From Ancylobacter mangrovi (GTDB lineage Bacteria; Pseudomonadota; Alphaproteobacteria; Rhizobiales; Xanthobacteraceae): DNA of 64,000 nucleotides. The position numbers and the translations under genes were made by a program. The DNA lies in contig NZ_JANTHZ010000003.1 in NCBI RefSeq assembly GCF_024752355.1, forward strand, positions 1 through 64,000, in the 5' to 3' direction. Under the pieces are notes generated by a model. It worked only from the letters and a program-made list of their open reading frames with translations. It had not been told where the DNA came from and did not search any database. This document shows positions 12,935-33,641 of the stretch, one piece after another. Each line of letters opens with the position of its first letter. Within the stretch, counting starts at the first letter, position 1.

Positions 12935-13030
12935 AGGGACCTCCATTTGGAACGTCCCTCAGTTGATGAGTTCCCTTCGAGAATTGGAGAGGGTTGTCTG
13001 GACCTTCACTTGTGCCAAAATGTTATCAAT

Positions 13031-13900: not shown

Positions 13901-14806
13901 CGTCAACTTTGGCGGATAGAGGAAGACTGCAGGGCGGGTCGTCGAGTGCCGACATTTGCATTGCACGATAGAGTCTTCACTCCGAGCGACCGTGGAGAAC
14001 CGCCTTCTGGCGCAGGTGACCTAAAAGCATCTCTGCAAAATGCAGAAATTCACTAAGCGGGCTGGTGAACCCACTTCGTCAGCCTACAGCCCTGCCCACT
14101 CAGCAGTGCAATAATGTGGGGTAAAATGGCGGTAACTGCATCGGTGAACATCAAAAAATTTAATAAAATCAATGGCTAATGCAATGAAGTTGGCGGGCCG
14201 CGAGCGACCAAGAAGAGAACTATGTGTTCGCTATAGCCCTATGACGCATGCTGACCCCATACCTGCCCTTCGCCGCCTTTCAGCGAGGTCCGCTTTGCGC
14301 CGCCATTTCTGTCATTACCGTTCGAAAGGCTGCTGCCCAGAAGCGGGCATGAGCGAGGCAGGACGTCGTGCATCTTTGCGTCAAAAACGGCCATCGGAAT
14401 GGGGCGACGTTCTCCGACGTGACATGCGCCTGAATACCGGGCGGCAGACAGATTAGAAGGAGCGATCCCGCACGGGGGCCAAGCTGCGGAGAGCCCCTTG
14501 AATGCACGGCTTGAGGGAATGCCTTGCGAGGGCCGGATCGCAAGGGCGATTCTGCAGGAGACGGAAGGCTTGCGCTGCCAACGCCCAAAGAGCATTGCGC
14601 GAGGGACCGCTACCGAGAATGAGCTTATCTGCTGCCAGGGCAGCATTTTTGCCTAGAGCCTGGTTCCCGTTTGGAGCGTCACCTGCCAGCAGCCAGCAGC
14701 CAGCAGCCAGCAGCGATTCGTGGCATATGCGGCATCTTCCAGGTACCTTCGTGAAAGCTTGTTAGGATCGTCCCGCAGTGCCAAATATTTCCCTCGCGAG
14801 GGGTTG
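13901..14806. other. Long gap without a supported gene
   Basis: 906 bp between the LysR gene and the large NTPase gene. Several short frames exist on both strands, but none has a recognisable domain. The stretch 14140-14185 is strikingly AT-rich for this region. A 7-bp tandem repeat is at 14686-14713. This gap may mark a junction between accessory modules, as the genes on either side differ in type. Confidence 0.5.
14686..14713. repeat. Four tandem copies of the heptamer CCAGCAG
   Basis: CCAGCAG occurs four times without interruption, ending 93 bp upstream of the start of the NTPase gene. Short tandem repeats upstream of a gene can vary in number by slippage and change promoter spacing. Whether that happens here is unknown. 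Confidence 0.85.
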
Positions 14807-17800
14807 ATGACAGAGACAAATACGAATCCGCAGGCTGAAAAACTTGCGGCGGGCGGCGGAAACGCCACAGCCGCGGGCGTGATATTTCAGTCAGGCGTGG
14901 GCGCGCTTTTTGCTGTCGATATGCTCACTCAACGCGCCCTTGACCATCGGCTGGAACTGGGCGCCGCACGTCCTGTGGCAGTGCGTTTCGAGTCAGAGGC
15001 GCCCGTCGATGACATTTTGGTCGAGACCACTGCGGGTGGCTGGATATTTGTCCAATGTAAGACGACGATGACGCTTTCGCGCTCGCTCGAAAGCCCCCTC
15101 GGCAAGACCGCAGACGAGATTGTGCGTCTCTGGCAGATCTGTGAGTCCGACTCCCCATCTTACGGGTGGGACCGCCCGCTCGATCCGGCGCGCGACCGAA
15201 TTGTTGTCGCGGTCGGCGCCGCTGCATCATCGTCAGTCCGAGAGGCCCTGGCTGGGGCGCTGGCCGCCGTGCGCGCGCCGAGTGCAGCTCCGCTCACCCA
15301 AATCGCTTACGAGGCTTTGGACGCGCTGCGGAATTTGCTCACCCTAGCTTGGTCGCGGGTGACCGGCAGCTCGCCGTCAACCGGGCAGGTCGAAGCCATC
15401 CTGCGGCTGGTTTGGGTCGTCGAGTTCGATCTGCCGGGGGGCGCCCAGAGCGCTGCGATCGAAGCGCTCCGCGGAACCCTGCAAAATCCTGAGACCGCGT
15501 CGGCGACGTGGTCGGCAATACAATCGCAATGTGCGGTTTTGATGAGCGCGCGCCGCGGCACGGACGAGTTCGATCTTAAACGCCGGCTTGGAGTCTCTGT
15601 CGCCTTCTTGGCCCCGCCCGATTTCCGGGAGGATGTCCGGGTCGTGCGGCAGCGCAGCGATGAGGTGCGCGACGACCTCGCGCGTTTCGAGGAGACCCGC
15701 GTACACGGGGCGAGTATCCAGGTTCCCCGCGCCTGCACCGACGCAGTCGTTGCTGCTGCGCGAGATGGTTCGCTTGTCATTGTGGGGGATCCGGGCGCCG
15801 GAAAGAGCGGCGTCATCAACAGCGCCGCAGCTGCCCTTCGCGCCGAGGGGCATGACGTTATTGAACTTGCCGTTGATCGGCTGCCCGTCGACTCCCTTGG
15901 CGAGCTTCGCACTCAGCTCGGGCTGGAGCACAGCTTCCGGGAGGTGCTCGCAAACTGGCCGGGCGCTCAGACAGGGTACTTATTCATCGACGCGCTGGAT
16001 GCCACGCGTGGCGGCCAAAGCGAAGCAGTCTTTCGTGCCGTCATCGCTGAGGTCCTCGGAATGTCCGATCGGCGATGGCACGTGATTGCCTCGATAAGAA
16101 CATTCGATCTCATGTTGGGCGAGCAGTTTCGACGCCTGTTCGCGGGTGCGCCGCCAAGCCCTCAATTCGCTAGCCCGTCGTTTGGGCGTGTCCGCCACAT
16201 CCAGATCCCGGAATGGTCAGACACGGAATTTGCCGAACTGCTGCGTCAGGCGCCCGACCTGCGAACGGCGATTGAACACGGCGGCGAGCGCCTTCGGAAT
16301 CTGGCGCGGGTTCCGTTCAACACCCGCTTGCTGGCCGACCTTCTCAGCGGCGGCATGGCCCCGGAGGCCTTCGGAGAACTCGCCTCGCAAGTTGAGCTCT
16401 TGGGCCTCTACTGGCAGGAGCGCGTCGTTCGCCTCGGCACCCCGGCTGAGCGGTGCTTGCGCCGAACAGTAGAGCTGATGGTGCAGCGGGGCCGCCTTCA
16501 GGCGAACCGGATTGAGGCAAGCCGCGATACCGGCTCGGCCATCGACGAGCTTCGCCAGGCCAACGTGCTGGTCGATGTCGGCGACCGCGACGCGTCCTTT
16601 CGCCACCATATCCTGTTCGACTACGCCGCGAGCCGAGTGTTCATCGACCCGGACGACATCGCGGCGACCGCATCGCTGCTGCGCGCAAATCCAGCGCTTG
16701 GCCTTATGCTCGGGCCCGCGCTCGCGTTTGCGCTACAGGGGCTCTGGGCGAGCAGCGCGCCTGGAAGGTCGGAGTTCTGGGACGCTATCATCGAGCTCGC
16801 CGGAAACACGGCCGCCGACGCCGTTGGCCGCAGCGTGGCAGCCCGATGCGGGAGCGAGCTGCCCCGCACGGTCGGAGATATCGAGCAGTTTGCTGCGATG
16901 ATCGCGGCGAACGACTCGCGCCGCAGCAATACCGCCGCGGCGTTCGCAAATGTTGTCGGTGCGCTTGCCGTTCGCGCCGAGGACAAGCTGACGATCGCCC
17001 TCTCGCCGTGGTGCCGCCTCGCTGCGTTGATCAGCCAGGTAAGGCAGGAGGTGGCCTGGCCGCTCCGAACGCTCCTTCACCTTCTTCTGGGTCGGGAGCC
17101 GGCTGGGCCCGATTTGAACGAGGCGGGAACGGCGGCGCGCGCGTTGCTCGCGTATGCGGTGCGCGAGCCGAACGCACAGACCTTGGTCGCAAGCGCGATC
17201 GGATTCGTAGGATCCACTTACCCGACAAATCCGGTTGCGTCGCGCGAAGCCCTGGCCGCCCTCCTTGATCCGGTGCGCCTCGCCGAGCATGCGCATGAGG
17301 ATATGCACTGGCTCACCCGAGAGACGGCTCACATCGCACCGTACGACGCGGCGTTTGTGGTCCGCCTCTTTGCGACCGTGTTCGGGCACGAAGTGGGGGA
17401 CGAACAGCAAACCTCCCTTGGAAATAGCCGAATTCTGCCGCTGTCGAGCACACGACGGCAGGATTACGACATGGCGCGATGGTCGCTGAAGGAAGCCTTT
17501 CCGGACTTTATCGCCTCCCATCCCGCCGAGGGCGTTCGCGCGATGATCGCTGCGATTGCCGGCTACATCGCGCAGGGGCGGCACTCCACGTCCGGCACGG
17601 AGGCCGTACGAATTGAAGCCGGCGGTGCGTCCATAACCTTTCAGGAGGATATGAGCCACATCTGGGCGTGGGACCCAACCGATGCTCACTCGAACAATGC
17701 GATCGCCCTCGTCAACGCCTACGCAAAGTTCCTGGCTGCGGCACCCGCCGATAAGGCGGCCCGCCTCGTCGAAGCGGTCATGCAGGAAAATACGACTGCC

Positions 17801-19672
17801 CTCATCTGGGCCCGTACCTTTCAGGGCGCTGCCAAACGGGCGGACGATGCAGCAAGCGCGCTGCGGCCGTGGGCTGTTCAGCCGCCCTTCCTGATCAGCC
17901 TCGATACGCGCAAAGACGCAGTCGATTTCATCGCAAATGGGTATGGCACATGGCCGGTGGGAGAGCGCGCGGAATTCGAGCGCGACGTCCTCGCACTCAA
18001 GCGTCCAGACGTGAAGGACCCCGCCGAATGGCAGAATCATATTCGTCGCGTCATATTCGGCACAATTGGCGAAAGCGCGCTGGCGAGCGAGAACGCGCGC
18101 GCCTACGCGCGCCCGACGTCAGAAGGCGTAGAACAGCCATCAAATGAGCGTGCATTTGCCATCCGGTCTTACTCCCGCGGCGTGGATGATCACTGGTGGC
18201 TGCTCGATAGAGGCGTGGATGTCGATGCCGAACCAAATGCATCCGTGCTGGAGCAAATCGACGCCGCCACAACGATCGCGCCCGGCGACCTGGACGCCGC
18301 GACCCTGCACGCATTGAGCGAAGCTCTGGCGGGTTTGGTTGCCGCGCTCGAGACGACGCCGGCCGATCCCCTCGTCATCGATCAAGGATGGCGCCGCGCC
18401 GCGTCGGCCTGTGAGCGGCTGTCCCAGCAGTCGGAAATCCTTCGCCAGCTGCCGGACGATGTGACCCGCTTGGCTTCCATCGTGTCACGCCTCCTCGCTC
18501 TTCCCGTCGAGGCGGCCGATGCCGACGATCAGGGGCAGGTCTCGCTCGGCGGCATAGAGAGCGAGGCACTGGAAGCGGCACTGAATCTCGCGCTCCTGGA
18601 TCGCTCGACAGCCGAGCGCTTTCTGCCCGCGCTGCATGATCGCGCCGGGGTCCCCCGGGCGTCGGCGCGGTTGGCGGTGATGTCGCGGCTGAACCAGCTC
18701 TGGAATAGTGCCCGCGAAGACATGTGGTGTATTGCCGAGGCGCGCGCTGCGGCCGAGAGCAATCATGAGGTCTTGCGGTTCTTGCTCGGCTTCCTCAATC
18801 GCCTGGTTCATGCCGATCCCGTGCGCGTGGAAGCGATCGCGCTGACGCTCCTCCAGCGCGGCGTTCTCGCGAACACCGATCCAAGCCGTGAGATAGAGGG
18901 TGCCGCGGGAACACTGTTCGCGATCCTGTGGGTCTCACACGGCCGCGAACAGTCGCATGCCGTTCTCGATCGCTGGCTCGAGGCACCCGCCGGCCACCGG
19001 GACGAGTTTTGCGAAATCGCCTTTGCCATCCGCGGCGGGCTCGTTCTTGGCTATGACAAGGAGGACGCGGCGGATGACCTTGTGCGTCACCGCTGCCAGG
19101 CACTCGCCGCTCGGATCATTGACGTCACCGCGTCTCAACTGGACGCTTATCTTGCAACGCCTGCAGATCAGGTTCCTGCCGACGGACCCGATCGCGCCGG
19201 TGTCCTGGCCCAGATCATGGACCGGATGAGCGACCAATTCTACTTCGCCTCGGGCGCTATGGCCGAGCGGGACAGAAGCGAGAGCACGGGACTTAGTACA
19301 CCGGATCTGCGGCGCCGCTTTTTTGATGAAAATCAGGCGACGTTCCGCCGCGTCGGGACGTCGGGAACGCCGCACACTATCTATCACCTCATCGAGCTGC
19401 TTGACTTCCTTTCGGATGCCGACCCGCCGGCGATATTCGACCTCGTTGCACATGCTCTGCTGGTAGGTGGGCGGCGCCACGGCTTCCATTTCGAATCGTT
19501 GGGCGCCGACCGGTTCGTCAAAGTCATCGGCCGCTTCTTGGCTGACTATCGGCCCCTATTCGAAGCGCCGGATCGGCGTAGCCAGATCGTCGAATGTCTC
19601 AACGTATTCGCCGAGGCCGGCTGGCCTGCGGCCAGGCGGCTGCTCTTCCAGCTGCCCGAGCTGCTGCGATGA
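14807..19672 (+). CDS. Large nuclease-NTPase protein (DUF4297/Cap4-like N-terminus plus STAND-like P-loop), candidate antiphage effector
   Basis: 1621 residues from ATG 14807 (GAGGGG just upstream; the frame is open to GTG 14720). Residues 17-90 read GGGNATAAGVIFQSG...FESEAPVDDILVET...WIFVQCKT, with E62/E64, D68-D69 and Q83-C84-K85. This is the pattern of PD-(D/E)xK nuclease domains of the DUF4297/Cap4 type fused to STAND defence ATPases. A P-loop NTPase follows: Walker A GDPGAGKS at 327-334 (K333), Walker B YLFIDALD (D395) and sensor-like VIASIRTFD. From about 500 to 1621 it is almost entirely helical with repeat-like character, the usual sensor half of STAND proteins. No TIR or protease domain is seen. 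Its stop overlaps the start of the next gene (ATGA). Function is inferred: DNA-degrading defence triggered by a phage or plasmid ligand. Confidence 0.7.
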   Translation: MTETNTNPQAEKLAAGGGNATAAGVIFQSGVGALFAVDMLTQRALDHRLELGAARPVAVRFESEAPVDDILVETTAGGWIFVQCKTTMTLSRSLESPLGKTADEIVRLWQICESDSPSYGWDRPLDPARDRIVVAVGAAASSSVREALAGALAAVRAPSAAPLTQIAYEALDALRNLLTLAWSRVTGSSPSTGQVEAILRLVWVVEFDLPGGAQSAAIEALRGTLQNPETASATWSAIQSQCAVLMSARRGTDEFDLKRRLGVSVAFLAPPDFREDVRVVRQRSDEVRDDLARFEETRVHGASIQVPRACTDAVVAAARDGSLVIVGDPGAGKSGVINSAAAALRAEGHDVIELAVDRLPVDSLGELRTQLGLEHSFREVLANWPGAQTGYLFIDALDATRGGQSEAVFRAVIAEVLGMSDRRWHVIASIRTFDLMLGEQFRRLFAGAPPSPQFASPSFGRVRHIQIPEWSDTEFAELLRQAPDLRTAIEHGGERLRNLARVPFNTRLLADLLSGGMAPEAFGELASQVELLGLYWQERVVRLGTPAERCLRRTVELMVQRGRLQANRIEASRDTGSAIDELRQANVLVDVGDRDASFRHHILFDYAASRVFIDPDDIAATASLLRANPALGLMLGPALAFALQGLWASSAPGRSEFWDAIIELAGNTAADAVGRSVAARCGSELPRTVGDIEQFAAMIAANDSRRSNTAAAFANVVGALAVRAEDKLTIALSPWCRLAALISQVRQEVAWPLRTLLHLLLGREPAGPDLNEAGTAARALLAYAVREPNAQTLVASAIGFVGSTYPTNPVASREALAALLDPVRLAEHAHEDMHWLTRETAHIAPYDAAFVVRLFATVFGHEVGDEQQTSLGNSRILPLSSTRRQDYDMARWSLKEAFPDFIASHPAEGVRAMIAAIAGYIAQGRHSTSGTEAVRIEAGGASITFQEDMSHIWAWDPTDAHSNNAIALVNAYAKFLAAAPADKAARLVEAVMQENTTALIWARTFQGAAKRADDAASALRPWAVQPPFLISLDTRKDAVDFIANGYGTWPVGERAEFERDVLALKRPDVKDPAEWQNHIRRVIFGTIGESALASENARAYARPTSEGVEQPSNERAFAIRSYSRGVDDHWWLLDRGVDVDAEPNASVLEQIDAATTIAPGDLDAATLHALSEALAGLVAALETTPADPLVIDQGWRRAASACERLSQQSEILRQLPDDVTRLASIVSRLLALPVEAADADDQGQVSLGGIESEALEAALNLALLDRSTAERFLPALHDRAGVPRASARLAVMSRLNQLWNSAREDMWCIAEARAAAESNHEVLRFLLGFLNRLVHADPVRVEAIALTLLQRGVLANTDPSREIEGAAGTLFAILWVSHGREQSHAVLDRWLEAPAGHRDEFCEIAFAIRGGLVLGYDKEDAADDLVRHRCQALAARIIDVTASQLDAYLATPADQVPADGPDRAGVLAQIMDRMSDQFYFASGAMAERDRSESTGLSTPDLRRRFFDENQATFRRVGTSGTPHTIYHLIELLDFLSDADPPAIFDLVAHALLVGGRRHGFHFESLGADRFVKVIGRFLADYRPLFEAPDRRSQIVECLNVFAEAGWPAARRLLFQLPELLR

Positions 19673-21078
19673 ACATTTATGAGGCGCAAAGCAGGTTCAA
19701 GAGCCGGATGACCGAGCTTCAGCGCTGGGAGGAAAATCACGCATCGCCTGAGTTCGTCGGCGCGCGGTACTCCTCTCCTCTGGAAGCAACGACACGCAAA
19801 TTCGTGATCGACGAAGTCATGGACGGCCTCCTGTGGGACCTCAGCCGGATGACCCGCGAAGTGGTGGAAGAAGCCCGCGTCCGGGGCGAGACCACGCTCT
19901 TTCTGGACTACCTTGGCGTGAACCCCGACACGCGCCGTCCTTGGCTGATCGTCGAGGCCAAGGCATGGGCCAAGCCCATGATCGCGTGGTCGGCAAATGG
20001 CCTGTCGAGCAAGACGGTCAGCAAAAACCCGGCCGAGATGGTGGCCGCCGCCATCAACCACCTAAAGGCCGGAAAGGAAGCGAAGGACTCACCCGTAATT
20101 TTGGAGTGGGCGCAATGGCTGGAAAAACTGCGCGACTACGTGCGGGATTTGAAAGCGGAAAGCGGTATCGCGGTTACCCGGGCCGCCATAACCTCTGGCC
20201 GGTGGCTGGTTATCATCAAGGACCCCCAGGTAACGCTGCTTGACGACCGCGTCGCCGGCGCACTCGAGGTGCTCGTCTATGAAGGGCAGTCGCTCGTCCA
20301 GTCGTCCGACGCGATCTTCGACCTCCTGTCGCGCATTTCGCTGCTGGGTGATACGCCCGAGTTCGCGACGCCGAGCCAAGCGGCGAGTCTAATCACAGCG
20401 GCAGACGTCGCGCGTGTATTCCGCGGGGTGTGGCTTGCCCGTCAGACGACTGGATCGCAGTTTCGGCCGCGACCCCTCATCAATCTCTACCCGATCATCG
20501 TGCTGGACCTTACCACAGGTGAAAAGCTGGTCGTTCATGATGAGTCGGAGTTCGCGCTGCCCGCCAAGGGGGACGCGGTACCAAAATCAACTGCCGAGCT
20601 GGAGGCAGCATCGAACGCTCTTCTGGCGCAGATCAACGCAGTGTTCGGTGCTATATTCACTGCCTCGCCCCTAAACGAATTCGGCGGGTTCCCCAACCGG
20701 CCTGGCGATCCTGCCCTATCGCCGATACGGCCGCTTTCAAAATACGCCAATGAGTACATGGCAGTTACCGGCGAGAGCGCCCACTATCTGAGGTCGGCGC
20801 CGACCATCGGGTCCTGCGCGGCGCATGGGTGGGGCGCGTTGGTGCCGTCAGGCGTGCAAGTTGGATCGATGGTGCTTCGATCATCTGTAGACCCTGCGTC
20901 ATATTTCGCAGACGGTGATGCCTTTCATTGCGCCCACCGCGTCGTGCATGAGCGTCGCGACCGGCAATGTTTCATCGCGCCTTTTGAGAAGTATCTCTGC
21001 TGCAGAGCATGCATCTATCAGGATCGTTGTTGGTCGCCGGCCCAGCTTGGGGCGCTGCCTTGTGGTCTGACGATGTAA
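19669..21078 (+). CDS. PD-(D/E)xK nuclease-like protein with C-terminal cysteine cluster, coupled to the NTPase
   Basis: 469 residues from ATG 19669, which overlaps the NTPase stop by 4 nt. The N-terminus has a helix with E39 (SSPLEATTRKFVIDEVMDGL), then D80 in LFLDYLG and E96-A-K98 in PWLIVEAKAW: E...D-x15-ExK is the restriction-endonuclease fold active site. The middle is mixed alpha/beta with no known motif. The C-terminus (about 420-465) contains HCAHR...CF...CCRACIYQDRC, likely a zinc-binding knuckle. Coupling implies stoichiometric production with the NTPase, perhaps as a second nuclease or DNA-recognition subunit. I do not recognise this exact pair as a named defence system. No methyltransferase is adjacent, which argues against an ordinary restriction-modification pair. 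Confidence 0.65.
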   Translation: MNIYEAQSRFKSRMTELQRWEENHASPEFVGARYSSPLEATTRKFVIDEVMDGLLWDLSRMTREVVEEARVRGETTLFLDYLGVNPDTRRPWLIVEAKAWAKPMIAWSANGLSSKTVSKNPAEMVAAAINHLKAGKEAKDSPVILEWAQWLEKLRDYVRDLKAESGIAVTRAAITSGRWLVIIKDPQVTLLDDRVAGALEVLVYEGQSLVQSSDAIFDLLSRISLLGDTPEFATPSQAASLITAADVARVFRGVWLARQTTGSQFRPRPLINLYPIIVLDLTTGEKLVVHDESEFALPAKGDAVPKSTAELEAASNALLAQINAVFGAIFTASPLNEFGGFPNRPGDPALSPIRPLSKYANEYMAVTGESAHYLRSAPTIGSCAAHGWGALVPSGVQVGSMVLRSSVDPASYFADGDAFHCAHRVVHERRDRQCFIAPFEKYLCCRACIYQDRCWSPAQLGALPCGLTM

Positions 21079-21462
21079 ACAACGTAGCCCTCAAACGCCG
21101 CGCCGACAGGGTTGCGCTAAACGATCCCTTCGGTCCATCCGATGGTCCGTATTGACGTCGCATCTCGTCGCTGGGCGTACAGCGGCTAAGAGGGCGCAGA
21201 TGAGCGGTCTCCAAGGTTCCGAATCTTGGACGATGTCAAAGGCAAGACCGTGCCATTGGCAATTTCGATCACTGCCACGGTCACTTCTTGCCCTATGCAT
21301 TGATCGGCGGTGGGGCCGCTTCTCGTTGATCGCCCCTAATAGCTGACCATCCGCTGTCGGCCCCCAAACCGGGCATTCGTCCTCGCCGCAGCGAACGTGT
21401 CCTCCGGGCGCGACCGGCTCTTACGCGCTCGCCCGCGCGGGATAGCGCGGTAAGATCGTGTC
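21079..21462. other. Intergenic gap, no supported gene
   Basis: 384 bp between the nuclease-like gene and the HNH gene. Frames on both strands are short and carry no recognisable motif. It presumably holds the promoter of the HNH gene. Confidence 0.5.
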
Positions 21463-22362
21463 ATGGGATTCGGCGTTTTCATCCATCGTACAGACTCGAT
21501 CTATGACGATAGGCCGGCTGAGCGGTACCAGTTCCCTCGGCAGTATCTCGGCCGCGTCGAGGCCTGCGTTGGCGATTGGGTTGTCTATTACGAGCCGCGG
21601 AAGGTGGCGGACACGCGGGGATACTTCGCCATCGCGAAGGTGGAGCGCGTTGTGCCCGATCCGACGACGCCGGGGATGTTTCTCGCGCTGATAGAGCCAG
21701 GAAGCTATCTCGACTTTGCCAGTCCGGTGCGCTTTAGCGACGAGGGTGGCGTCATCGAGCGCGGCGTTCTGAACCAGGATGGGCGGATCTCCGGCCGTGC
21801 CCAGGCTGCGGTTCGAGCGCTCTCCCCGGGTGATTTCGACCGTATCATTGCGCGCGGCCTCGATGACCGGGCGCCGCTGCTTCCGCGCACGGATATGGAT
21901 TTGCCTCCGAACGGATTCAGCGAAGAACTGGCTCCCTTTGTGTTCGAGGAGAGTCGGGAGCGCATCAGCTATCTGTCGTCACGGATCGTGCGGGATCGCG
22001 TCTTCCGCCGCATCGTGCTGCGCGCCTATGACGAGCGCTGCGCCATCAGCGGCTTGAAGTTGATCAATGGTGGCGGGCGGGCCGAGGTCGCAGCGGCCCA
22101 CATTCAGCCCGTTCAGGCGAACGGACCGGATATCGTCAGCAACGGATTGGCTCTGTCGGGCACGGCACACTGGATGTTCGATCGCGGGTTGATCAGCCTG
22201 TCGGATGATCTCGACGTGCTGATCTCCCGGCACGCCAACGATCCCGACGGCGTACGCGCCTTCGTCAATCGGAGCGGGCGCGCAATTGCCCCGCAACGGG
22301 CGTTCGAGCGTCCGCATCCGCACTTCCTGCGCTGGCATCGCGAGCACTGCTTCAAGCAGTGA
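21463..22362 (+). CDS. HNH endonuclease with N-terminal PUA/EVE-like domain (putative type IV restriction enzyme)
   Basis: 299 residues. The N-terminal 100 residues (VEACVGDWVVYYEPRK...GYFAIAKVERVVPD...FLALIEPGSYLDF) have the beta-rich look of PUA/EVE/ASCH-like modified-base readers. The C-terminal domain is HNH of the HNH_2 type: LRAYDERCAISG, AAAHIQPVQANGPDIVSNGLALS and AHWMFDRGLISL, providing H, N and H. Combinations of a PUA-superfamily reader with HNH are known in restriction enzymes that cut DNA with modified cytosine. No companion methyltransferase is present, consistent with a modification-dependent (type IV) enzyme. Its stop overlaps that of the convergent gene by 11 bp. Confidence 0.8.
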   Translation: MGFGVFIHRTDSIYDDRPAERYQFPRQYLGRVEACVGDWVVYYEPRKVADTRGYFAIAKVERVVPDPTTPGMFLALIEPGSYLDFASPVRFSDEGGVIERGVLNQDGRISGRAQAAVRALSPGDFDRIIARGLDDRAPLLPRTDMDLPPNGFSEELAPFVFEESRERISYLSSRIVRDRVFRRIVLRAYDERCAISGLKLINGGGRAEVAAAHIQPVQANGPDIVSNGLALSGTAHWMFDRGLISLSDDLDVLISRHANDPDGVRAFVNRSGRAIAPQRAFERPHPHFLRWHREHCFKQ

Positions 22363-23017
22363 AGCCGACTGCATCGTGACGCTGTACCTGCATCAAGCGC
22401 GCAACATCCCGGCGGATGCGCCGTAGTTCGGGCCAAGGGAAATGCCGCCCCTCGGCGCCATCCGCGCCGACGGCAAGCAGCACGTCGAGCTTCGTGGAGA
22501 GGCCGCGCAGAGACGTGGCTTCCGCTGCAAGAACTCCCTTCATCAGGCGCTCTTCTTCGTCGGAAGCCGCCTCCTCTCGCTGCCGAGCGACGGAGTAGCC
22601 GATGGCGCGATCCGCTTCGTCCCAACGCTGCTGATGTGCGCGCAGCACTGCGGCGACTTGGGCGCGCCGCGTGCAAAGTGACGGCAAATCGCCAGCAAGC
22701 TGATCGAACTGCCACAAGGAGTTGATGCGCACCGGTGATGGCAGTTCGGCCGCAGCTAGAACCGCCTGCGGAAAGCCGATCGTCCGCGCGAGTTCGGACT
22801 CCAGAGCTTGCTGTTTCCGACACAGGGCGAGCGTTCGCCGATGCGCGGCGCGCCACGCATTCCACGCAATGACTGCGGCATCTGTCGTGCCGCCATCCTG
22901 GGGCGCAGCTGCAGCGGAATTGTTGAAGGAGGTGCCGCCGATCGTCATCAGGGCGGCAGAGAGAACGTCCCTTCGGGATGGTCGGGACAGACTCGTGCTA
23001 ATCTCAGAATCAGCCAT
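22352..23017 (-). CDS. Hypothetical Tat-exported protein
   Basis: 221 residues from ATG 23017 (GGAGC 7 nt upstream). Residues 13-40 contain SRRDVLSAALMTIGG and AAAAPQDG, a twin-arginine leader with probable cleavage near residue 39. The mature part is helical and rich in Arg, Ala and Leu, with the look of a coiled-coil (ERLMKGVLAAEATSLRGLSTKLDVLLA). No domain is recognised. It is convergent with the HNH gene and divergent from the XRE regulator 137 bp away. A periplasmic role for a mobile-element gene is unusual; function unknown. Confidence 0.6.
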   Translation of the reverse strand: MADSEISTSLSRPSRRDVLSAALMTIGGTSFNNSAAAAPQDGGTTDAAVIAWNAWRAAHRRTLALCRKQQALESELARTIGFPQAVLAAAELPSPVRINSLWQFDQLAGDLPSLCTRRAQVAAVLRAHQQRWDEADRAIGYSVARQREEAASDEEERLMKGVLAAEATSLRGLSTKLDVLLAVGADGAEGRHFPWPELRRIRRDVARLMQVQRHDAVGFTA

Positions 23018-23132
23018 GATCCGAGCTCCAGGCAGCTTGGGTTGTGGTCAGGCCGGGCGCGTGGTGCAAACACGCGTTCGGCCGTCATGAGTCACCAAAG
23101 GTACACTTCTGTAGGTCGATGAACAATAAAAA

Positions 23133-23149
23133 TCACCATATTATGGTGA
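23133..23149. promoter_or_regulatory. Perfect palindrome touching the XRE gene start (candidate operator)
   Basis: TCACCATA-T-TATGGTGA: perfect 8-bp arms around one base. It ends 4 nt before the GTG start of the small XRE gene, so it overlaps the ribosome binding region (GGTGA). A bound repressor would block both this promoter and possibly the divergent one. Confidence 0.65.
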
Positions 23150-23153
23150 CTTC

Positions 23154-23390
23154 GTGACCCCGGCGCAGTGCAGGATGGCGCGCGCGGCGTTGACGTGGGG
23201 AGTGCTCGATCTCGCTCGCGAGGCTTCTATTTCCACGCAGACGATCGTGCGTTTCGAACGCGGTGAACAGCTTCGTTCTTCTACAGTCGCAGCGATGCGG
23301 GACGCTCTCGAAGCCGCCGGCATCGAATTCATCCCAGAGAACGGCGGCGGCGCCGGTGTCCGCTTTCGTAAGCCGTCAGCGTCAGACTGA
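23154..23390 (+). CDS. Small XRE-type helix-turn-helix regulator
   Basis: 78 residues from GTG 23154. The sequence CRMARAALTWGVLDLAREASISTQTIVRFERGEQL is a cro/C1-type HTH with the DLA..A.IS..TI.RFE.G signature, followed by AMRDALEAAGIEFIPENGGG, a C-terminal tail common in alphaproteobacterial mobile-element regulators. Such proteins usually autoregulate and control excision or transfer. The palindrome immediately upstream is the obvious binding site. The start relies on the palindrome-borne GGTGA, and no ATG is available nearby. Confidence 0.85.
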   Translation: MTPAQCRMARAALTWGVLDLAREASISTQTIVRFERGEQLRSSTVAAMRDALEAAGIEFIPENGGGAGVRFRKPSASD

Positions 23391-23994
23391 GGCCGAGTTG
23401 AGTGCAACTTGCACACTAAGAAATTGCGGGCTCCGCGCAGCTCGACGACAGTTTCACTGCAAGGTTTCTGCACGCTAGCAGACGGGCACGTGCAACTTCG
23501 CTGCGGATTGGCGGGAGCGCGGCCGCGGCGTAAGCGGCTTTTGGCCGCGAACTCACGCATCAACCGTCGCGACTCCTAAGCCGGCTGTAGCGCCTGCGGC
23601 GGCGACAGCGTGTTATAGGTTTGCTCGGGCGGCAGCAGACATTGCGCGGTTGTTGCCTCGTAGTATAATTGGCATGACTAGTTTGTTTAAGTGCGCCAAT
23701 AGTGAATAAGAAAAGATTGAGGGCAAGATAAATCGGATTTTCAATCCGCGCGGGCGACGCCCGCAAAATGTTGTCTGCACGTTGTTTTCCGTTCCGGAAA
23801 ACGGGTCTACGCGGATTTCCGGAAGGTGCGGATCTGTGCGACGGTCGTTCAAACGATTGATATTTAACCAATCTTCGTGTGCATGCGGAATGTGCGCTCC
23901 GCCGGCCCTGCGCCAAAGCCGACGTTTCCACGCTCTACTTTGATCGCGTAATTTTCGACTTGCGGGAGCCATTGGCGCGGCCAAACCTGCGGTC
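23391..23994. other. Gap upstream of the relaxase with a cluster of stem-loops (possible oriT region)
   Basis: 604 bp without a supported gene, directly upstream of the relaxase, where oriT is normally found. Between 23690 and 23880 the DNA becomes AT-rich, and three consecutive stem-loops occur at 23734-23748, 23750-23764 and 23784-23802. No RP4- or VirD2-type nick consensus was found, so the nick site is unknown. Confidence 0.45.
23734..23802. other. Three consecutive inverted repeats, candidate oriT
   Basis: CGGATT-TTC-AATCCG (23734-23748), GCGGGC-GAC-GCCCGC (23750-23764) and GTTTTCCG-TTC-CGGAAAAC (23784-23802). All have perfect arms and 3-nt loops. Their spacing and their position about 190 bp upstream of the relaxase start suit relaxase recognition. 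They could instead be a terminator cluster. Confidence 0.4.
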
Positions 23995-26103
23995 ATGACA
24001 CGCCACGACGACGATGATTTCCGCATCAAGCCAGGCCGTCCGCGAAGCCGGGGCACGCGGCTGAAGACGCACGAACTGCCCTTCGTTCGACAGGCCCTGA
24101 TCGCCGCTCGCAATGCCGGCGGTGGCGCCCGGAGCGGTGGTGGCTTTGCCGGAGAGGCGGGCGGCAGCGGTCGGTTCAATGCCCGCGGACGCGGGGCGAA
24201 AGTGATGGCGTCGCTGCCGCGCGACAGCGGCGGCTGGCAGTCGGGTTCCTCAGGCCGGTTCCGCTCCCGCCGCGTCGTGGTCAAGGCAAGGGTGGTGAAG
24301 CTCGCCGGGAAGGGGAAGAGCGCGCGCGGCCCGAAGATGCGCGGTGCGGTGTCGGTCGGCGCTGTGGGCGCGCATCTGCGCTACCTCGAACGTGACGGCG
24401 TGACCCGCGACGGCGAGAAAGGGCGTGCTTACTCGGCGCTGGGTGACGAGGTCGACGCCAAGTCTTTTGTTGAGCGCAGCGGCAAGGATCGCCACCAGTT
24501 CCGCTTCATCGTCGCGCCGGAAGATGCTGCGGAACTCGAAGACCTGAAGCGCTTCACCCGTGACCTGATGCGACACATGGAGAATGACCTCGGCACCAAG
24601 CTCGACTGGATCGCCGTCGATCATCACAACACCGGCCACCCCCACAGCCATATCCTCGTGCGCGGTGTGCTGGATGATGGTCGTATCCTCAACATCGCCG
24701 GAGACTACATCGCCCACGGCATCCGCCATCGGGCGAGCGAGCTTATGACGCTGGAGCTCGGCCCGCAGACCGAGGTGGAGCTGCAGAACAAGCTGCGCCA
24801 TGAGGTGAACGCCAATCGGCTCACCCGGCTCGACCGGATGATGTTCGCCGAGCAGCGCGAACATGGTGTCCTCGATCTGCGACCAGACGCTGGCGAGAGC
24901 TACCTCGTGCGGACCAACCGGCATGTTCTGATCGACCGGGTAAAGCGGCTGGAGAACTTCGGCATCGCCGAGGAGATCGAGCCGGGACGCTGGAGCATCG
25001 CCGAGCGAGCCGAGAGCACTCTCCGGGCGATGGGCGAGCGTGAGGACATTTTGCGCATCATGCACCGCGCGCTGGCCGATCATGGGCTCACGGAGGAGCG
25101 CGGCGCTGCGCAGTACCTCACCCATGGCGACCGCATCTCACATGCCTTGGTCGGGCGCGTGCTCGACAAGGGATTGGCCGGTGATGAGATGGGAGAGCGG
25201 TTCTATCTCGTGATCGATGGCGTGGACGGACGCACCCATCATGTCGAAACCAGCGACGCCTCCCGGTTAGACGACATCAAGCGCGGCCACATCGTCGCGC
25301 TCGACCCGCTGCCGACAAAGTCCGATCCACGTCCGGCGGACCTCAACATCGCCATCATGGCCGAGGCAAACAGTGGCATCTACCGGCCGAGCGAGCACCT
25401 AGAAGCGGCGCGCCCGGCAATCGAGCAGCAGCGCGGTGATCCCGATGCCTTTATCCGCGCCCATGTGCGCCGCCTCGAAGCCCTGCGTCGCGCCGGTCAC
25501 GTCGAGCGCATCGACGCCGACCATTGGAAGATCCCCGACGACTTGCCCGAGCGCGGCATGGCCCATGACGCACGCACCCAAAGGAAGGACTTCGCGGTCC
25601 ACACGCTCTCCGCCTTCGATCTCGACCAGCAGGTCGCCAGCGACGGCGCAACCTGGCTCGATCGGGAACTCGCCTCGCGCCAGCGCACGGAGCTTTCCGA
25701 CGCCGGCTTCGGCCGTGAGGTGGGTGACGCTCTGGAGCGCCGCCGCCAGAGTCTCGTCGATCAGGGGCATGCCGTTCGACTGGAAAACGGCAATGTACGG
25801 GCACCGCGCGACATTCTCGCGCGGCTTGAGACCGCCGAGGTGGAGCGGGTCGGGCGTACCATGGCGGCAGAGCGCGGCCTCTCCTACACCCCCAGCCGGC
25901 CGGGCGAGTACGTGTCCGGCCGGCTCGCCGGCTCGGTCAATCTGGTCAGCGGGCGCTTCGCCATGATCGACGATGGCCTCGGCTTCCAGCTCGTGCCCTG
26001 GCAGCCTGTGCTGGAGAAGCAGATCGGCCGGCACATCTCCGGCGTCTCCCGAGACGGTGGCGTCGAGTGGAGCCTCGGTCGTAATCGAGGGCTCGGGCTT
26101 TAG
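23995..26103 (+). CDS. Relaxase/mobilization nuclease (DUF3363, RlxS type)
   Basis: 702 residues. An Arg/Gly-rich N-terminus precedes VGAVGAHLRYLERDG, where Y130 is a candidate DNA-nicking tyrosine. The metal-binding His cluster is DHHNTGHPHSHILVRG (H211, H215, H217, H219 among them). The rest, including ELGPQTEVELQNKLRHEVNANRLTRLDRMM, matches the DUF3363 region of RlxS-type relaxases of alphaproteobacterial integrative elements. It would nick oriT and pilot the strand into a recipient. No coupling protein or secretion genes follow, so transfer would need machinery in trans. Its stop overlaps the stop of the convergent gene at 26100-26103. Confidence 0.88.
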   Translation: MTRHDDDDFRIKPGRPRSRGTRLKTHELPFVRQALIAARNAGGGARSGGGFAGEAGGSGRFNARGRGAKVMASLPRDSGGWQSGSSGRFRSRRVVVKARVVKLAGKGKSARGPKMRGAVSVGAVGAHLRYLERDGVTRDGEKGRAYSALGDEVDAKSFVERSGKDRHQFRFIVAPEDAAELEDLKRFTRDLMRHMENDLGTKLDWIAVDHHNTGHPHSHILVRGVLDDGRILNIAGDYIAHGIRHRASELMTLELGPQTEVELQNKLRHEVNANRLTRLDRMMFAEQREHGVLDLRPDAGESYLVRTNRHVLIDRVKRLENFGIAEEIEPGRWSIAERAESTLRAMGEREDILRIMHRALADHGLTEERGAAQYLTHGDRISHALVGRVLDKGLAGDEMGERFYLVIDGVDGRTHHVETSDASRLDDIKRGHIVALDPLPTKSDPRPADLNIAIMAEANSGIYRPSEHLEAARPAIEQQRGDPDAFIRAHVRRLEALRRAGHVERIDADHWKIPDDLPERGMAHDARTQRKDFAVHTLSAFDLDQQVASDGATWLDRELASRQRTELSDAGFGREVGDALERRRQSLVDQGHAVRLENGNVRAPRDILARLETAEVERVGRTMAAERGLSYTPSRPGEYVSGRLAGSVNLVSGRFAMIDDGLGFQLVPWQPVLEKQIGRHISGVSRDGGVEWSLGRNRGLGL

Positions 26104-27359
26104 GCCGCGCCGTCCTGCGGAGGCGGTGTTTCCTGATCAGGGTCGGCCGGCAGCGGCGCGAAGGGATCGACCTCCGGGAACAGCGTGCGCTCACGCAGCC
26201 AATCGCCAAACGAGGCGGGATCGAGCGCACGCTCCAGTTCGCCAAGGCGCCGGCGTGCCCAGTCAAGCATGCGCTGCGTTTCGGTGTCCTCAATATCCGC
26301 CGCCCAGGCCATCCAGGAGCGCAGCTGTTCGGCTTTGCGGCCCATCTCGACGATCTCATCAAGCAGTTCGTCGCGTTCCTCCTCGCGCTTGGTGCGCGCC
26401 TCCGTCCGCTTCCGGTTCTCTTCCGCGCGGCGGCGGAGACGTGCGTTGCGCTCGTCTTTGAGACGGTCATCGCGCCGGTAATCGATCCAGCCGCGGAGTT
26501 CCTCGATGATGGGGTCGAGTTGGGCTTCCAGGGTCGCACGGGTGTTGTCCCGCCAGTTGCGGCGGCGCTGGTCTGTGCTCCAGGCTTCAATGGAGATCGT
26601 CAGTTCACCAGTCGCGATGTAATCGAACTCGGGATATTGGCGCTCGTAGGTGAATGCCCAATCACGGTAGCGAGCCGAGCGGCGATAGCGCTCTTCCGCC
26701 TTTAACTCGTCGACCGTAGGCTCGTGCTTCTGCCTTTTGATGGTCTCCGCCAGGATGAAGGGGACCTTGTCGACGCCCCGACGCACTTCGACATGCTTGC
26801 CTGCGAAGGTGCAGGAAATCTCCCGCGCCTCCAGCCCGCGTGCGATGCTGTCGAGAATGAAGATCGCCCTCTCGATCGAACCGGCTCCCAGCCGCATCGA
26901 CAGCAGGCCTTCCCCGCTAATCGCGATGATGCCGTCATGATCCGGCTTGGCCCGGCGCAGTGTATGGGCGGTCAGCGATACGGCAGTGTGGGGTTTGTCG
27001 ATCCGGCTCCACTCGATCGTCCGTGTGTTCGGCTCTCGCGGCTTCAAAAGCCGGCGTGGCGCGGTGGCTGCCTTGCGCGCCTGTTGGAGGCGCTCCTCGA
27101 CAATCGGATCTGACGGGCTCGTCGGATCGAGGCTGATTAGCTCGACGGCAGAATCGGCGGAGGAGGCAAAGATCGTTTGCCTCGGGCGCTTGCCGGCCGC
27201 CTTGTCTCGCCAATAGGCAGTTGTCGGGAGCGGCACGCGATGCCGGACGCAGAGATCTTTGAGCCGCCAATGCGAGGTGCCGAGCTTGGCAGCGACGGCC
27301 TCAAGCGGCTCGGCCCAAACGAGATCATACATCTCGCGGCGGGTAACATGGGCAATCAT
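26100..27359 (-). CDS. Mobile-element hypothetical with N-terminal HTH-like region and coiled coil
   Basis: 419 residues. The N-terminus (TRREMYDLVWAEPLEAVAAKLGTSHWRLKDLCVRHRVPLPTTAYWRDKAAGK) has a helix-turn-helix look and recurs at the start of a family of uncharacterised proteins on alphaproteobacterial mobile elements. The centre (about 140-190) is alpha/beta. Residues about 265-350 are very rich in Arg/Glu/Lys, a long coiled coil. No enzyme motif is visible. It faces the relaxase tail to tail with overlapping stops. A DNA-binding or transfer-accessory role is possible but unproven. Confidence 0.65.
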   Translation of the reverse strand: MIAHVTRREMYDLVWAEPLEAVAAKLGTSHWRLKDLCVRHRVPLPTTAYWRDKAAGKRPRQTIFASSADSAVELISLDPTSPSDPIVEERLQQARKAATAPRRLLKPREPNTRTIEWSRIDKPHTAVSLTAHTLRRAKPDHDGIIAISGEGLLSMRLGAGSIERAIFILDSIARGLEAREISCTFAGKHVEVRRGVDKVPFILAETIKRQKHEPTVDELKAEERYRRSARYRDWAFTYERQYPEFDYIATGELTISIEAWSTDQRRRNWRDNTRATLEAQLDPIIEELRGWIDYRRDDRLKDERNARLRRRAEENRKRTEARTKREEERDELLDEIVEMGRKAEQLRSWMAWAADIEDTETQRMLDWARRRLGELERALDPASFGDWLRERTLFPEVDPFAPLPADPDQETPPPQDGAA

Positions 27360-27871
27360 GCGGATATGCGAGCGACATCAACGGGAAGCATGCAGTCTAT
27401 CGCCGATCGATGACATCCCGCCGGCCGACCAACGCCATTCACAGAAAAGAACTTCCGCGAAGAACCAGTAGGCCGGTCGGCCGCAGCCGCATCAAGGCTG
27501 GCGCTTCGCGCCACCGCTCACGCGGCTACGGCCTTGACCCAGCCGCGGCAGACCGGCAGGGCTGGCCATCGCGTAAGGCGGAGTGTGAGCGGCTTGCTCA
27601 ACGAGTGGGAGACGCCGACGGTTGGGACGCGCCGGGAACGGACTGGTCGGTTTTTGGCTGCCGCTGTGCAGATAGCCGCCGTTCTGCAGCCGACCCCATT
27701 TCCGCCTTCATGCATTCCCTCGCGGGGTGACGGTTTTGAGCCCTGTTGCTGGAGCAGCCATGGCGTCTGGGGTGGAGAGCCGAAGCCGGAAACTCACCCT
27801 AGCGACGGCCGGGGAGCGGCCTTCCGTTCTGCCAAGCACGAACCTAGGCAGAGGTCCTCGCGGTGGTGCGT
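27360..27871. other. Gap without a supported gene
   Basis: 512 bp between the mobile-element gene (start 27359) and the end of the AlbA_2 gene. Short frames on both strands show no motif. It contains the promoter region of the coiled-coil gene. Nothing else could be supported. Confidence 0.5.
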
Positions 27872-29101
27872 TTACCTCTGAGTTCCCTGTTTTTCGGGCG
27901 GCAGTTTCAGATACTGACGGATCTTGTTTTTCACCTGATCGGCTAAGTCGATCTCATCTAAGGGTACGTTCCTTCCACCAACATAGTGGGTGGCTCCGAA
28001 TACTTCCCGTTGAATCTTGATGGCTGTCTCGAATTCCACATCAAGAATTTCAGCGAGCGCTTGAAAGGACAGCGCTTCACCTGGCCATTTTACATTTTCT
28101 TCGCCAGCAAGGACGGAGAGTGTAGTCCTAGATAGGTTAAAGCCCGACGGATGAAACGCTCTTTCCCGGATTTCATGAATATCCCGGGTCAAATCAGAGA
28201 GCCTGCGCTCCAATTTCTCGAGATTGTTTACGCCCTGTTCGAGTAACTTCTCCGATGGAGAGCTCACTCGAATGGTGCTGTGAAAATCTTTCAGGTAGTA
28301 CGTATAGGTCTTGGTGTGTTGGTTTCCGTCTGCATCTGCGTAGTGCAAGGTTACATCCATACGATCTTCGAGATGATCGTGGAAGAAATTAAAGCCAGCG
28401 CCCGGAAAATTGCGATTCTCTCCAGGATGGATAATGCGGAAGGGCTCAGTATAGGGACGACCCAGCCCCGGTGTCCAGATTTTTGCGATGGCGCTGTTTT
28501 CTATGCCATCAATCTGGATCCAGACATTGAAGACCGCGCCAATCCCTTCGTTAGCGATAACAAATGATATCTCACCGCCCTGAAACAAAACTGAAAGACT
28601 TGCCCCGCTTGCGATGGCTGCGACGCGTCTACGAATGTCGTCGATCTCGAAGGCAAGTAGCGGATCGACGCGGAACAGGCGGCGCGCATAGTACCGTTTA
28701 TCTGACGATTGATGTGGTGCATTCAACGACGGCGGCACGTCGATGACTAGGAGATGGCCGCCGACGGCTTCGATCCGAGTAATTGCAATATTAAGTCTTG
28801 GCGTGATGCGGGAGAGAAGACCGTCCTCAATCCAAGCCTCGTCCTTTTTACCGTCCGCCACAGGTACAATTTCCGAAATCCGCCGATCGCCGTCTTCCTC
28901 GACACCGATGATGAGAACGCCGCCGATGCTGTTGGCTAGAGCAGTGATCTCCTTTGAGAGAGTTTCAAATATCTTGTCATTCTTTTGATCAAAGAGACGG
29001 CACGATTTGAATTCGAGCGTGGCATTTTCGGAATCACCACGGTCTCGCATCTCTAGAATATGCTCTAACGTTTGCGGAACGAAATAGGGCATGTGCGGCA
29101 T
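27872..29101 (-). CDS. Schlafen/AlbA_2 domain protein
   Basis: 409 residues. Residues about 10-150 form an AlbA_2 (Schlafen-type) domain: ENATLEFKSCRLFDQKN, LSKEITALANSIGGVLIIGVEEDGD and a later DVPPSLNAPHQSSDKRYYARR. The ExK and N-x-x-GG-x-(L/I)-x-x-G-V motifs are present. The middle (about 170-290) is a beta-rich uncharacterised region; residues 300-330 are a coiled coil; the C-terminus (SGFNLSRTTLSVLAGEENVKWPGEALSFQALAEILDVE) resembles an HTH-like fold. Schlafen-type domains bind nucleic acid and occur in prokaryotic RNA-cleaving or regulatory proteins. It diverges from the PLD-like gene, with 170 bp between the favoured starts. GC content is lower than that of the core genes, suggesting transfer. 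Confidence 0.72.
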   Translation of the reverse strand: MPHMPYFVPQTLEHILEMRDRGDSENATLEFKSCRLFDQKNDKIFETLSKEITALANSIGGVLIIGVEEDGDRRISEIVPVADGKKDEAWIEDGLLSRITPRLNIAITRIEAVGGHLLVIDVPPSLNAPHQSSDKRYYARRLFRVDPLLAFEIDDIRRRVAAIASGASLSVLFQGGEISFVIANEGIGAVFNVWIQIDGIENSAIAKIWTPGLGRPYTEPFRIIHPGENRNFPGAGFNFFHDHLEDRMDVTLHYADADGNQHTKTYTYYLKDFHSTIRVSSPSEKLLEQGVNNLEKLERRLSDLTRDIHEIRERAFHPSGFNLSRTTLSVLAGEENVKWPGEALSFQALAEILDVEFETAIKIQREVFGATHYVGGRNVPLDEIDLADQVKNKIRQYLKLPPEKQGTQR

Positions 29102-29133
29102 CTCGTTTCTGTGGAGTCACCTGAATCGTAGAT

Positions 29134-29146
29134 CATCAAGTTGATG
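29134..29146. promoter_or_regulatory. Short palindrome between divergent AlbA_2 and PLD-like genes
   Basis: CATCAA-G-TTGATG, perfect 6-bp arms, 33 bp upstream of the AlbA_2 start and about 125 bp upstream of the PLD-like start. It is in position to control both genes. A TATACA box at 29215-29220 could be the -10 of the plus-strand gene. Confidence 0.35.
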
Positions 29147-29271
29147 TAAAAAGAGATTTATTCGTCATGTAGCGGATGGCATACGTGACCTACATTTAGA
29201 GGTGGGGTGACTGCTATACACGTTTGCCTCCGGACCTTACAATAACAGGTAATATTTCAGCATGGTGCGAC

Positions 29272-30813
29272 ATGACGAGAACCGGAAGGCGCCATTGGCT
29301 TTGGGTGGCGTTCGGCATAGAGGCAACCCTACTCTACGGGTGCCTTGTTCATAGCGCTGAACTCGGAGCCGTGATTCCCGACAACGAGAAGCGGAAGACC
29401 GCGCGTTTCGACGGGACGGACGTCGAGATAATTCAAGCCCTCCTAGACAGCGAAGAGGCCCAGCAGATTGGGGATGCGGTTCGTACGCAGTCGACCTTGG
29501 ATCTTTCACGGCAGGGCGGTCCGCGCATCGCGTTGGGCGGTTCCCGTCACAGGCTCGTTGACGGGTTTGGACGCCGTTCCCGTCCGATGAAAACCTATGT
29601 CGGCACAGTTCACCCTCCGCTCTCGGACAATGGATGGACTCAGGCTTTAAATTTCCTCAGGGAGACGATCGGTCTCGATTTTCGCCGGCTTCCCGATCGT
29701 CTCGGTGCTTTCGACATCTACGATGTGCCCGAGGCCGATGGTAGAGATCCGCCCATCGATTTCAGCGTGGAACGGGACCGCTCTACGGAAACGCTAACCT
29801 ACCCGGAACAGTTCGTACTGCGCGCAAACCGAACGGCCGTCGACGATTACGCTGTCCATGTGGTGCTCGAACTCGGGCAGGAGCCTGTTTTTTCCAAACT
29901 GATCACCATGCACCCTACCGCAACGGTGGAGGTGGAGGCGGTTCCGTTCGATCACTACAGAATGTCCGTCTTTGACCGGTCGGGCATGCTAGTCCAGTTC
30001 GAGGAGCATTCGCTCCTGCTCCACATCAATCTCAACATATCAGCAATGGGGCCAACGCTCGCGATCAATGACACATTGGCCCGCTCGGCTCAGGGGCTCG
30101 GACCGGAACTTCGAGATAGCGCATCGAAGGTTCGCACTCGATCCACGAGCCGATCGAAGATTACGGCTGAAAGCGATGCCGCCTTCGAGGCGAACCGAAC
30201 AAAGATGCGGGCGCTCGCGCACCGGTTGGTGCCTCCGTCAGGCAGCGACCGCTGGTTTCATCGAGGTATCGCAGAAGAGGTCGGCGTCATCGCTCACTTG
30301 AACGTTCTGCTGGACGGCGCGCGTGTCAGCGCCGGCACGATCGTCGATCCGTATTTCGGGATCGACACCCTGAAGCGGGTCATTTCCCGGCTCGAAAGCC
30401 TGGATGTCGATCTGACGGTCGTCACGAGTCTGATAGAGACCGACCCGGAAACAAATGATCCAAATGTAAGCCTGCTCGACGAACTGGAAACGGTCCTGCG
30501 CGACTTGCGGGGCAGCGGCATCCCCAACGCCGCCCGCCGACTGAGGGTTCGCAATCTCGTCGATGGCCCGCGACAAGCATTCCATGACCGTTATCTCCTG
30601 CTCACGCCTCATGAAGGCGAATGCGAGGTCTATCTTCTTTCCAACAGCTTGAACCGTATGGCGGGAAAATGGCCGTTCTGCATGTCGAAGCTTGAGGGGG
30701 CCGCGGCGCGTGACGCCGCGCTTTACATTGATGGGCTTGCCAATGGGCGGGACATCTCCGGATCGACGCAACCGACGACAAACTTCCAATGGCCTTACGA
30801 TGACGGGCGATAG
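29272..30813 (+). CDS. Protein with C-terminal PLD-like (HKD-variant) domain, unknown family, candidate defence gene
   Basis: About 513 residues from ATG 29272; the frame is open to TTG 29224. The N-terminal half (RRHWLWVAFGIEATLLYGC...) is unrecognised, with a beta-rich section near 190-270. The C-terminal half resembles phospholipase D-like nucleases: TIVDPYFGIDTLKRVI, then FHDRYLLLTPHEGECEVYLLSNSLNRMAGKWPF. H-D-R-Y plus SNSLN recalls the HxK...GSxxN core, with Arg in place of Lys and one copy only, so activity would require dimerisation. From memory, island proteins annotated VPA1262-family may share this layout; this is unverified. It overlaps the next gene by 14 bp, so the two are coupled. 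Possible DNA or nucleotide-processing enzyme. Confidence 0.6.
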   Translation: MTRTGRRHWLWVAFGIEATLLYGCLVHSAELGAVIPDNEKRKTARFDGTDVEIIQALLDSEEAQQIGDAVRTQSTLDLSRQGGPRIALGGSRHRLVDGFGRRSRPMKTYVGTVHPPLSDNGWTQALNFLRETIGLDFRRLPDRLGAFDIYDVPEADGRDPPIDFSVERDRSTETLTYPEQFVLRANRTAVDDYAVHVVLELGQEPVFSKLITMHPTATVEVEAVPFDHYRMSVFDRSGMLVQFEEHSLLLHINLNISAMGPTLAINDTLARSAQGLGPELRDSASKVRTRSTSRSKITAESDAAFEANRTKMRALAHRLVPPSGSDRWFHRGIAEEVGVIAHLNVLLDGARVSAGTIVDPYFGIDTLKRVISRLESLDVDLTVVTSLIETDPETNDPNVSLLDELETVLRDLRGSGIPNAARRLRVRNLVDGPRQAFHDRYLLLTPHEGECEVYLLSNSLNRMAGKWPFCMSKLEGAAARDAALYIDGLANGRDISGSTQPTTNFQWPYDDGR

Positions 30814-33617: not shown

Positions 33618-33641
33618 CCGCCTGACACGAAAGGCTCCGCC

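Follow-up and report, generated by a model that had tools for sequence, protein, structure and literature searches.

Gene pair at the locus

The DNA analysed here (the window) is a stretch of 64,000 nucleotides from Ancylobacter mangrovi (NCBI RefSeq assembly GCF_024752355.1, contig NZ_JANTHZ010000003.1, positions 1 to 64,000 of the forward strand). The subject of this report is a pair of adjacent genes in it, here called A and B, whose products are a STAND-like nucleoside triphosphatase (NTPase) with a nuclease-like N-terminus and a second nuclease-type protein, respectively (Table 1). Longer in-frame starts are available for both genes (GTG at 14720 for A, instead of the ATG at 14807; ATG at 19594 for B). 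The first-pass annotation of this DNA had described the overlap of the A stop with the B start, which was confirmed, and had named no system that pairs the two genes. However, the pair is listed in PADLOC-DB 2.0.0 as PDC-M54: A was matched by PDC-M54A (E = 0, 1741 bits, positions 1-1621 of the 1621-position model) and B by PDC-M54B (E = 2.7e-129, 430 bits), both over nearly full length. The two genes are adjacent, on the same strand and both matched by the models, and thus the pair belongs to an already catalogued phage-defence candidate. Neither the name PDC-M54 nor an experimental test or mechanism of it was found in the PMC papers searched. PDC-M54 is an unnamed candidate, to which the present analysis adds a proposed mode of action. 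With Pfam, window A gave sub-threshold matches only (chiefly P-loop families) and window B a single weak match.

Table 1. Features of the A-B pair and of the surrounding region (window coordinates; aa, amino acids)
Feature	Position	Strand	Basis or remark
Gene A, 1621 aa	14807..19672	+	Predicted PD-(D/E)xK-type N-terminus; STAND-like NTPase carrying an FRHH motif (winged-helix-like); C-terminus helical; PDC-M54A
A residues 18-160, predicted alpha-beta-beta-beta-alpha-beta core; E62, D68, D69, Q83, K85	14858..15286	+	Model secondary structure, conservation
A residues 327-334, P-loop GDPGAGKS (K333)	15785..15808	+	
A residues 395-398, Walker B DALD	15989..16000	+	D395, L397, D398 in 89/89 rows
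A residues 598-608, FRHHILFDYAA, STAND-like winged-helix motif	16598..16630	+	Conservation; aligned to PDB 9n00
Long helical stretch of A, residues 613-1621 (presumed sensor)	16643..19669	+	
ATGA, A stop / B start overlap	19669..19672	+	
Gene B, 469 aa	19669..21078	+	Second PD-(D/E)xK-type protein, C-terminal Cys/His cluster; PDC-M54B
B residues 39-183, nuclease-like core; E39, E68, D80, E96, K98	19783..20217	+	
B residues 383-465, cluster C383 H386 H420 C421 C434 C444 C445 C448 C454 C465	20815..21063	+	
Possible island	14190..35257	.	46-bp element 14202-14247 to tRNA-Ser(GGA) 3' end 35244; left end uncertain

Domain organization of protein A

Conservation in A was examined in 89 aligned rows, 39 from loci with B and 50 from loci without it (solo A). 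The cores of PD-(D/E)xK nucleases follow the order helix-strand-strand-strand-helix-strand, as predicted for the N-terminus of A. The residues E62, D68, D69, Q83 and K85 were conserved in 38/38 of the B-paired rows containing the region (one more row is without it), whereas among the solo rows Q replaces E62 in three and two are without all or most of the N-terminal region. By motif and by helix/strand order, the N-terminus is probably a PD-(D/E)xK-type core with E..DD..QxK. The label DUF4297/Cap4, given to it in the first-pass annotation, stood in part: the motif and the order agree with it, whereas no DUF4297 model of Pfam was listed at E <= 0.1 for any of 64 A N-termini. The link is thus not seen at the sequence level, and it rests on the motif, the secondary-structure order, a very weak match to AbpA (8zue; E 0.056) and the fold match of the whole model to Avs3 (see below).

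STAND NTPases are recognized by a P-loop, a Walker B motif, a sensor Arg and a winged-helix His. This set is present in A as K333, D395-D398, R431 and H600 (K333, D395, D398, R431 and H600 conserved in 89/89 rows), with fold matches agreeing. Within the winged-helix motif, F598, H600, H601, F604 and D605 were invariant (73 rows), and we take the stretch FRHHILFDYAA to resemble NACHT motifs. Among 33 NTPase segments of A relatives, Pfam (E <= 0.01) assigned nSTAND3 to 16, NPHP3_N to 24 and NACHT to 4; window A itself fell below the STAND cut-off (nSTAND3, 19.6 bits versus 27.2). The structure model of A covers residues 1-1200 (mean predicted local distance difference test score (pLDDT), 91.3). 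With this model, the best Foldseek matches were Avs3 (E 2.3e-12) and Avs4 (1.1e-11), followed by SAMD9, NLRP7, Avs5, NLRC4 and NLRP3, a ranking that fits a STAND receptor. The layout first annotated (a STAND-like NTPase between a nuclease-like N-terminus and a long helical C-terminus) was borne out by motif conservation, model and fold matches, and by fold A probably consists of a central STAND NTPase with an N-terminal effector, at the level of modules and with a low global template modelling score (TM-score). By blocks of 60 residues, conservation in A was lowest at 1141-1200 and highest at 1561-1620, where it exceeded that of the P-loop block; residues 1561-1620 correspond to window positions 19487-19666.

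Avs proteins have the order nuclease, STAND NTPase and helical C-terminus, and their sensors, by which a phage terminase or portal is bound, are tetratricopeptide repeats (TPR). In contrast to the Avs TPR, the helical part of the A model matched importin/CAND1-type proteins (Kap121, CAND1 and importin 13; E ~1e-4 to 1e-3), and such helical folds are built of HEAT-type repeats. A differs from Avs3 and Avs4 also in being coupled to a second nuclease-type gene. By sequence, the nearest solved relative of A is a 1523-aa 'AAA family ATPase' (PDB 9n00/9n01/9yix; E 1.9e-13 with the NTPase profile; a single-sequence search of solved structures with A gave nothing useful). Its entry 9n00 can be aligned with A at the DD..QCK stretch and at the H motif of the winged helix; it was not among the 50 Foldseek matches listed for A, and the literature search found no name or relevant paper for it. 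The report on DUF4297-HerA (PMC11291478, Cell Res 2024) describes a two-component defence system of a nuclease and an ATPase, in which DUF4297 has a PD-(D/E)xK motif and cuts dsDNA. In that system, nuclease and HerA ATPase are two distinct proteins, whereas A appears to fuse a nuclease-like domain to a STAND-like NTPase; moreover, the partner there is HerA, whereas the partner of A is the nuclease-type B, for which no HerA-type match was obtained in the library scans.

Protein B

The site E..D..ExK and the Cys cluster that had been noted in B proved conserved: E68, D80, E96 and K98 as well as C383, H386, H420 and C421 are present in 38/38 rows, and the remaining six Cys of the cluster in 36-37 of the 38. 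The best fold match of the B model (mean pLDDT 87.5) was BpuSI (E 0.016, probability 0.99), and the fourth was a restriction-endonuclease-like protein (E 0.12). All 34 B proteins scanned matched PDC-M54B, and HSDR_N was matched by 8/36 at E <= 0.1 (best 0.0039; window B not among them). A B profile, over positions ~8-116 only, matched proteins in another 27 of the 398 genomes scanned; the three of these loci examined encode HsdR-like proteins, presumably HsdR-like helicases, with the match within the nuclease part. As first annotated, B is a second protein of PD-(D/E)xK type; it appears similar to BpuSI and to the N-termini of HsdR, and its Cys/His cluster is undescribed. Beyond the nuclease core, the ten Cys/His residues included, no significant match was obtained in two fold libraries.

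A relation of B to Shedu was ruled out (hhalign probability 0.3%; SduA_C listed for 0/36 B proteins). The search of solved structures was of no use either with B alone (one match, E 0.75) or with the B profile (matches at E 0.22), and the search of viral contigs with B alone found no relative. Since the A profile found two viral contigs, both with B, single-sequence searches with B overlook relatives.

Distribution, coupling and co-inheritance

Genome loci (n = 79) were fetched by the A profile from the best 80 of 130 relatives, and 12 plasmid loci (of 16 matching plasmid records; four were not taken in) and two viral contigs (IMG/VR) were added. A B match was found in 33/79 genome loci (two of them, L049 and L065, broken or short), 3/12 plasmid loci and 2/2 viral contigs. 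B was not matched in the other 46 genome loci, 6 of which stop <= 1500 nt past A; A is fragmented in L020, L079, L093 and L096, of which L093 is also one of the six short loci and L096 has a B remnant. Weak B matches in L002 and L003 (residues 384-451 and 412-455; a stop inside) were treated as chance, because these are the only two of 99 loci without an A match, and in L002 a 355-aa opposite-strand frame lies there. B stands directly behind A in the sampled pairs, most of which were fetched via A. With B as the query, tblastn of plasmids gave 3 records, each with A directly upstream, and the scan of 398 genomes with the B model gave two full-length B (the window and G653, where the end of A lies just upstream). 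The pair is rare: in the class sample of 385 genomes, the window alone had a convincing B.

The 4-nt overlap of the A stop and the B start was found in 37/40 pairs, with TAGTG in two and a short gap in one (fragments and near copies are counted among the 40 junctions). The protein distances in A correlated with those in B at r = 0.97 (34 of 37 pairs, near copies dropped), and 0/2000 permutations were as high; this means co-inheritance, not contact. In a FastTree phylogeny of the A rows, the presence of B required 11 changes, at least 9 of them forced by well-supported branches; 'solo' here takes in loci that end early and the tree came with long-branch warnings, so that the count may be an overestimate. 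B is an optional part of A loci. The pairing described in the first-pass annotation is genuine, though not constant.

For the neighbours, 87 genes were hand-picked from 151 candidates, the nearest one or two on each side, at 32 pair loci; they matched 173 PADLOC models (E <= 1e-10), versus 19 for 65 control genes of one genome, an indicative comparison that counts models rather than genes. The 25 neighbour models listed include GajA/GajB, Drt4, Drt6, LmuB, AbiEi and REase_I (one or two genes each), from Gabija, DRT, Lamassu, AbiE and type I restriction components, and a defence-type neighbourhood of the pair is suggested.

Proposed mode of action and alternatives

From the architecture, the fold class, the intact catalytic motifs of A and B, the conserved coupling, the co-divergence and the mobility, we propose, with a probability of roughly 0.58, that the two genes encode a mobile immune system of the STAND type, in which phage-triggered and NTP-gated destruction of DNA would be carried out by two nucleases. 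A would rest in an inactive, NTP-bound form until some component of a phage (or plasmid) that enters the cell is sensed by the helical, variable C-terminus. NTP binding or exchange at K333/D395-D398 may then drive oligomerization, by which the Cap4-like N-terminal domains would be gathered into active DNases as in Avs3/Avs4, where oligomerization brings the nuclease domains together. B, supplied at a fixed ratio via translational coupling, would be a second DNase of the HsdR/BpuSI type with a Cys/His metal cluster, recruited or activated by A, and together they may destroy DNA with greater completeness or safety than A would by itself. The defence function itself is, as in the first-pass annotation, what we infer. 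NLRs have their prokaryotic relatives in the STAND receptors of bacteria, and an intrinsic nuclease with an optional coupled second one, present in solo and paired relatives, may serve as a test of the division of labour between receptor and effector; the catalogue entry PDC-M54 also gains a concrete proposed mechanism.

Several observations weigh against this proposal. The whole-chain TM-scores of A versus Avs3/4 are low (0.10-0.26, root-mean-square deviation 28-35), so that the likeness is at the module level only. The AAA+ machines p97, ORC and Sec18 are among its fold matches (E 7e-5 to 1e-3), and generic AAA models cover more of the NTPase segments (AAA_22, 31/33; AAA_16, 29/33) than nSTAND3 does. 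No PADLOC Avs profile matched A (PDC-M54A models alone were listed at E <= 1), and given the STAND-like fold we therefore call A an Avs-like variant, not an Avs. The best fold match of B is not significant, none being under 1e-3, and the search of BFVD likewise gave none under 1e-3. A co-divergence such as that of A and B is expected of any co-inherited pair, and the neighbour count is indicative only. Finally, A is often solo (46/79 genome loci without a B match), from which it follows that B is not required for all functions of A, and the sister group of window A (support 99) consists of six solo A (L020, L021, L024, L026, L029 and L059).

In the strongest of the alternatives, B would be a regulator or a specificity or self-protection subunit, a DNA-binding protein with a metal cluster that restrains or aims A, the latter being receptor and effector alone. 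This explanation, to which we give a minor though real share, is in keeping with the many loci without B that keep the A motifs, and with a B protein that carries a ten-residue Cys/His cluster and outside its core has no significant fold match. However, the invariance of E68, D80, E96 and K98 is unexpected for a purely structural subunit. Less probable is a restriction-like complex, driven by ATP and acting on incoming DNA without recognition of a phage protein, in which A would be the NTPase and B the HsdR-type cutter. The sequence proximity of the B core to HsdR-like N-termini and the AAA+ machines among the fold matches of A agree with it, as do the methyltransferase-type genes beside some solo A (L042; weakly L090; annotated in L013) and the restriction-type HNH gene adjoining the pair (window 21463-22362, plus strand, ~0.4 kb past B), whereas no methyltransferase match was found among the 14 other window proteins scanned and the best fold matches of A are STAND receptors. 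As for that HNH gene, which had been annotated as modification-dependent, its HNH_2 domain was above the cut-off and PADLOC HNH models were matched, while the phosphorothioation-dependent restriction model reached 104.5 bits, short of its cut-off of 180; the label was supported in part. A role outside defence, in the stability of mobile elements or in competition between them, might be suggested by the island location in the window and by the 3 plasmid records with the pair, but it is improbable in view of the immune receptors among the best fold matches of A and of the defence-model matches beside the pair in several hosts (model counts, one-genome control).

Partners of solo A

Among the 25 neighbour clusters listed in the partner survey, a single partner gene, adjacent to solo A and on its strand, is conspicuous, namely the one just upstream in L010, L011, L076, L077, L078, L083 and L086. 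These loci form one clade in Rhizobiaceae (three with identical A), and SduA_C (Shedu) was found in 2/2 of the upstream proteins scanned; SduA belongs to the PD-(D/E)xK class. The Shedu-like gene at L011:5704-7158 lies upstream of solo A as though substituting for B, which is itself unrelated by profile. We tentatively consider, as an idea with the odds against it, that a STAND receptor with a built-in nuclease uses an exchangeable, separately encoded second nuclease, B downstream or, in this clade, Shedu upstream. To our knowledge, a receptor with an intrinsic plus a recruited second nuclease has not been described for Avs systems; it would combine a built-in first cutter with a recruited second, perhaps as a two-key safety or as a split between cutting and degradation. 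The proteins scanned downstream of solo A (n = 8) comprised six of diverse families (including methyltransferase, HEPN, DUF4365, DUF5677 and RhuM) and two unmatched. Irrespective of B, a 322-381-aa protein recurs ~0.2-0.9 kb upstream or downstream of A in L006, L011, L013, L040, L077, L078 and L086, and is annotated as RHE_PE00001 family in L006 and L013.

Genomic island

The mobile island of the first-pass annotation agrees with the presence of a relaxase, a serine recombinase and tRNA-Ser(GGA) (35244-35333, minus strand), and with the occurrence of A in 2/30 genomes of the genus. The sequence beyond the tRNA gene is conserved in all six genus loci compared (30 genomes). L105 has a 14-bp copy of the tRNA end next to a 46-bp element, which is found again at window 14202-14247 and there is possibly the left end of an island of ~21 kb with A-B, the HNH gene, the relaxase, a Schlafen-type gene and the serine recombinase. 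Two observations speak against a sharply defined left end: the LysR gene at 12947-13900, too, is confined to this one of the 30 genomes (E <= 1e-60), and the window's copy of the tRNA-end repeat is poor. In another species of the genus (G768; L101, L102), an A of 37% identity lies ~18 kb from the same tRNA-Ser and has no B match, and the two genomes offer a natural comparison of solo and paired A beside one tRNA gene. The island also encodes a Schlafen AlbA_2 domain protein (27872-29101, minus strand). The serine recombinase frame (33642-35630, plus strand) overlies the tRNA-Ser(GGA) gene, so that its end may be provided by the integration site.

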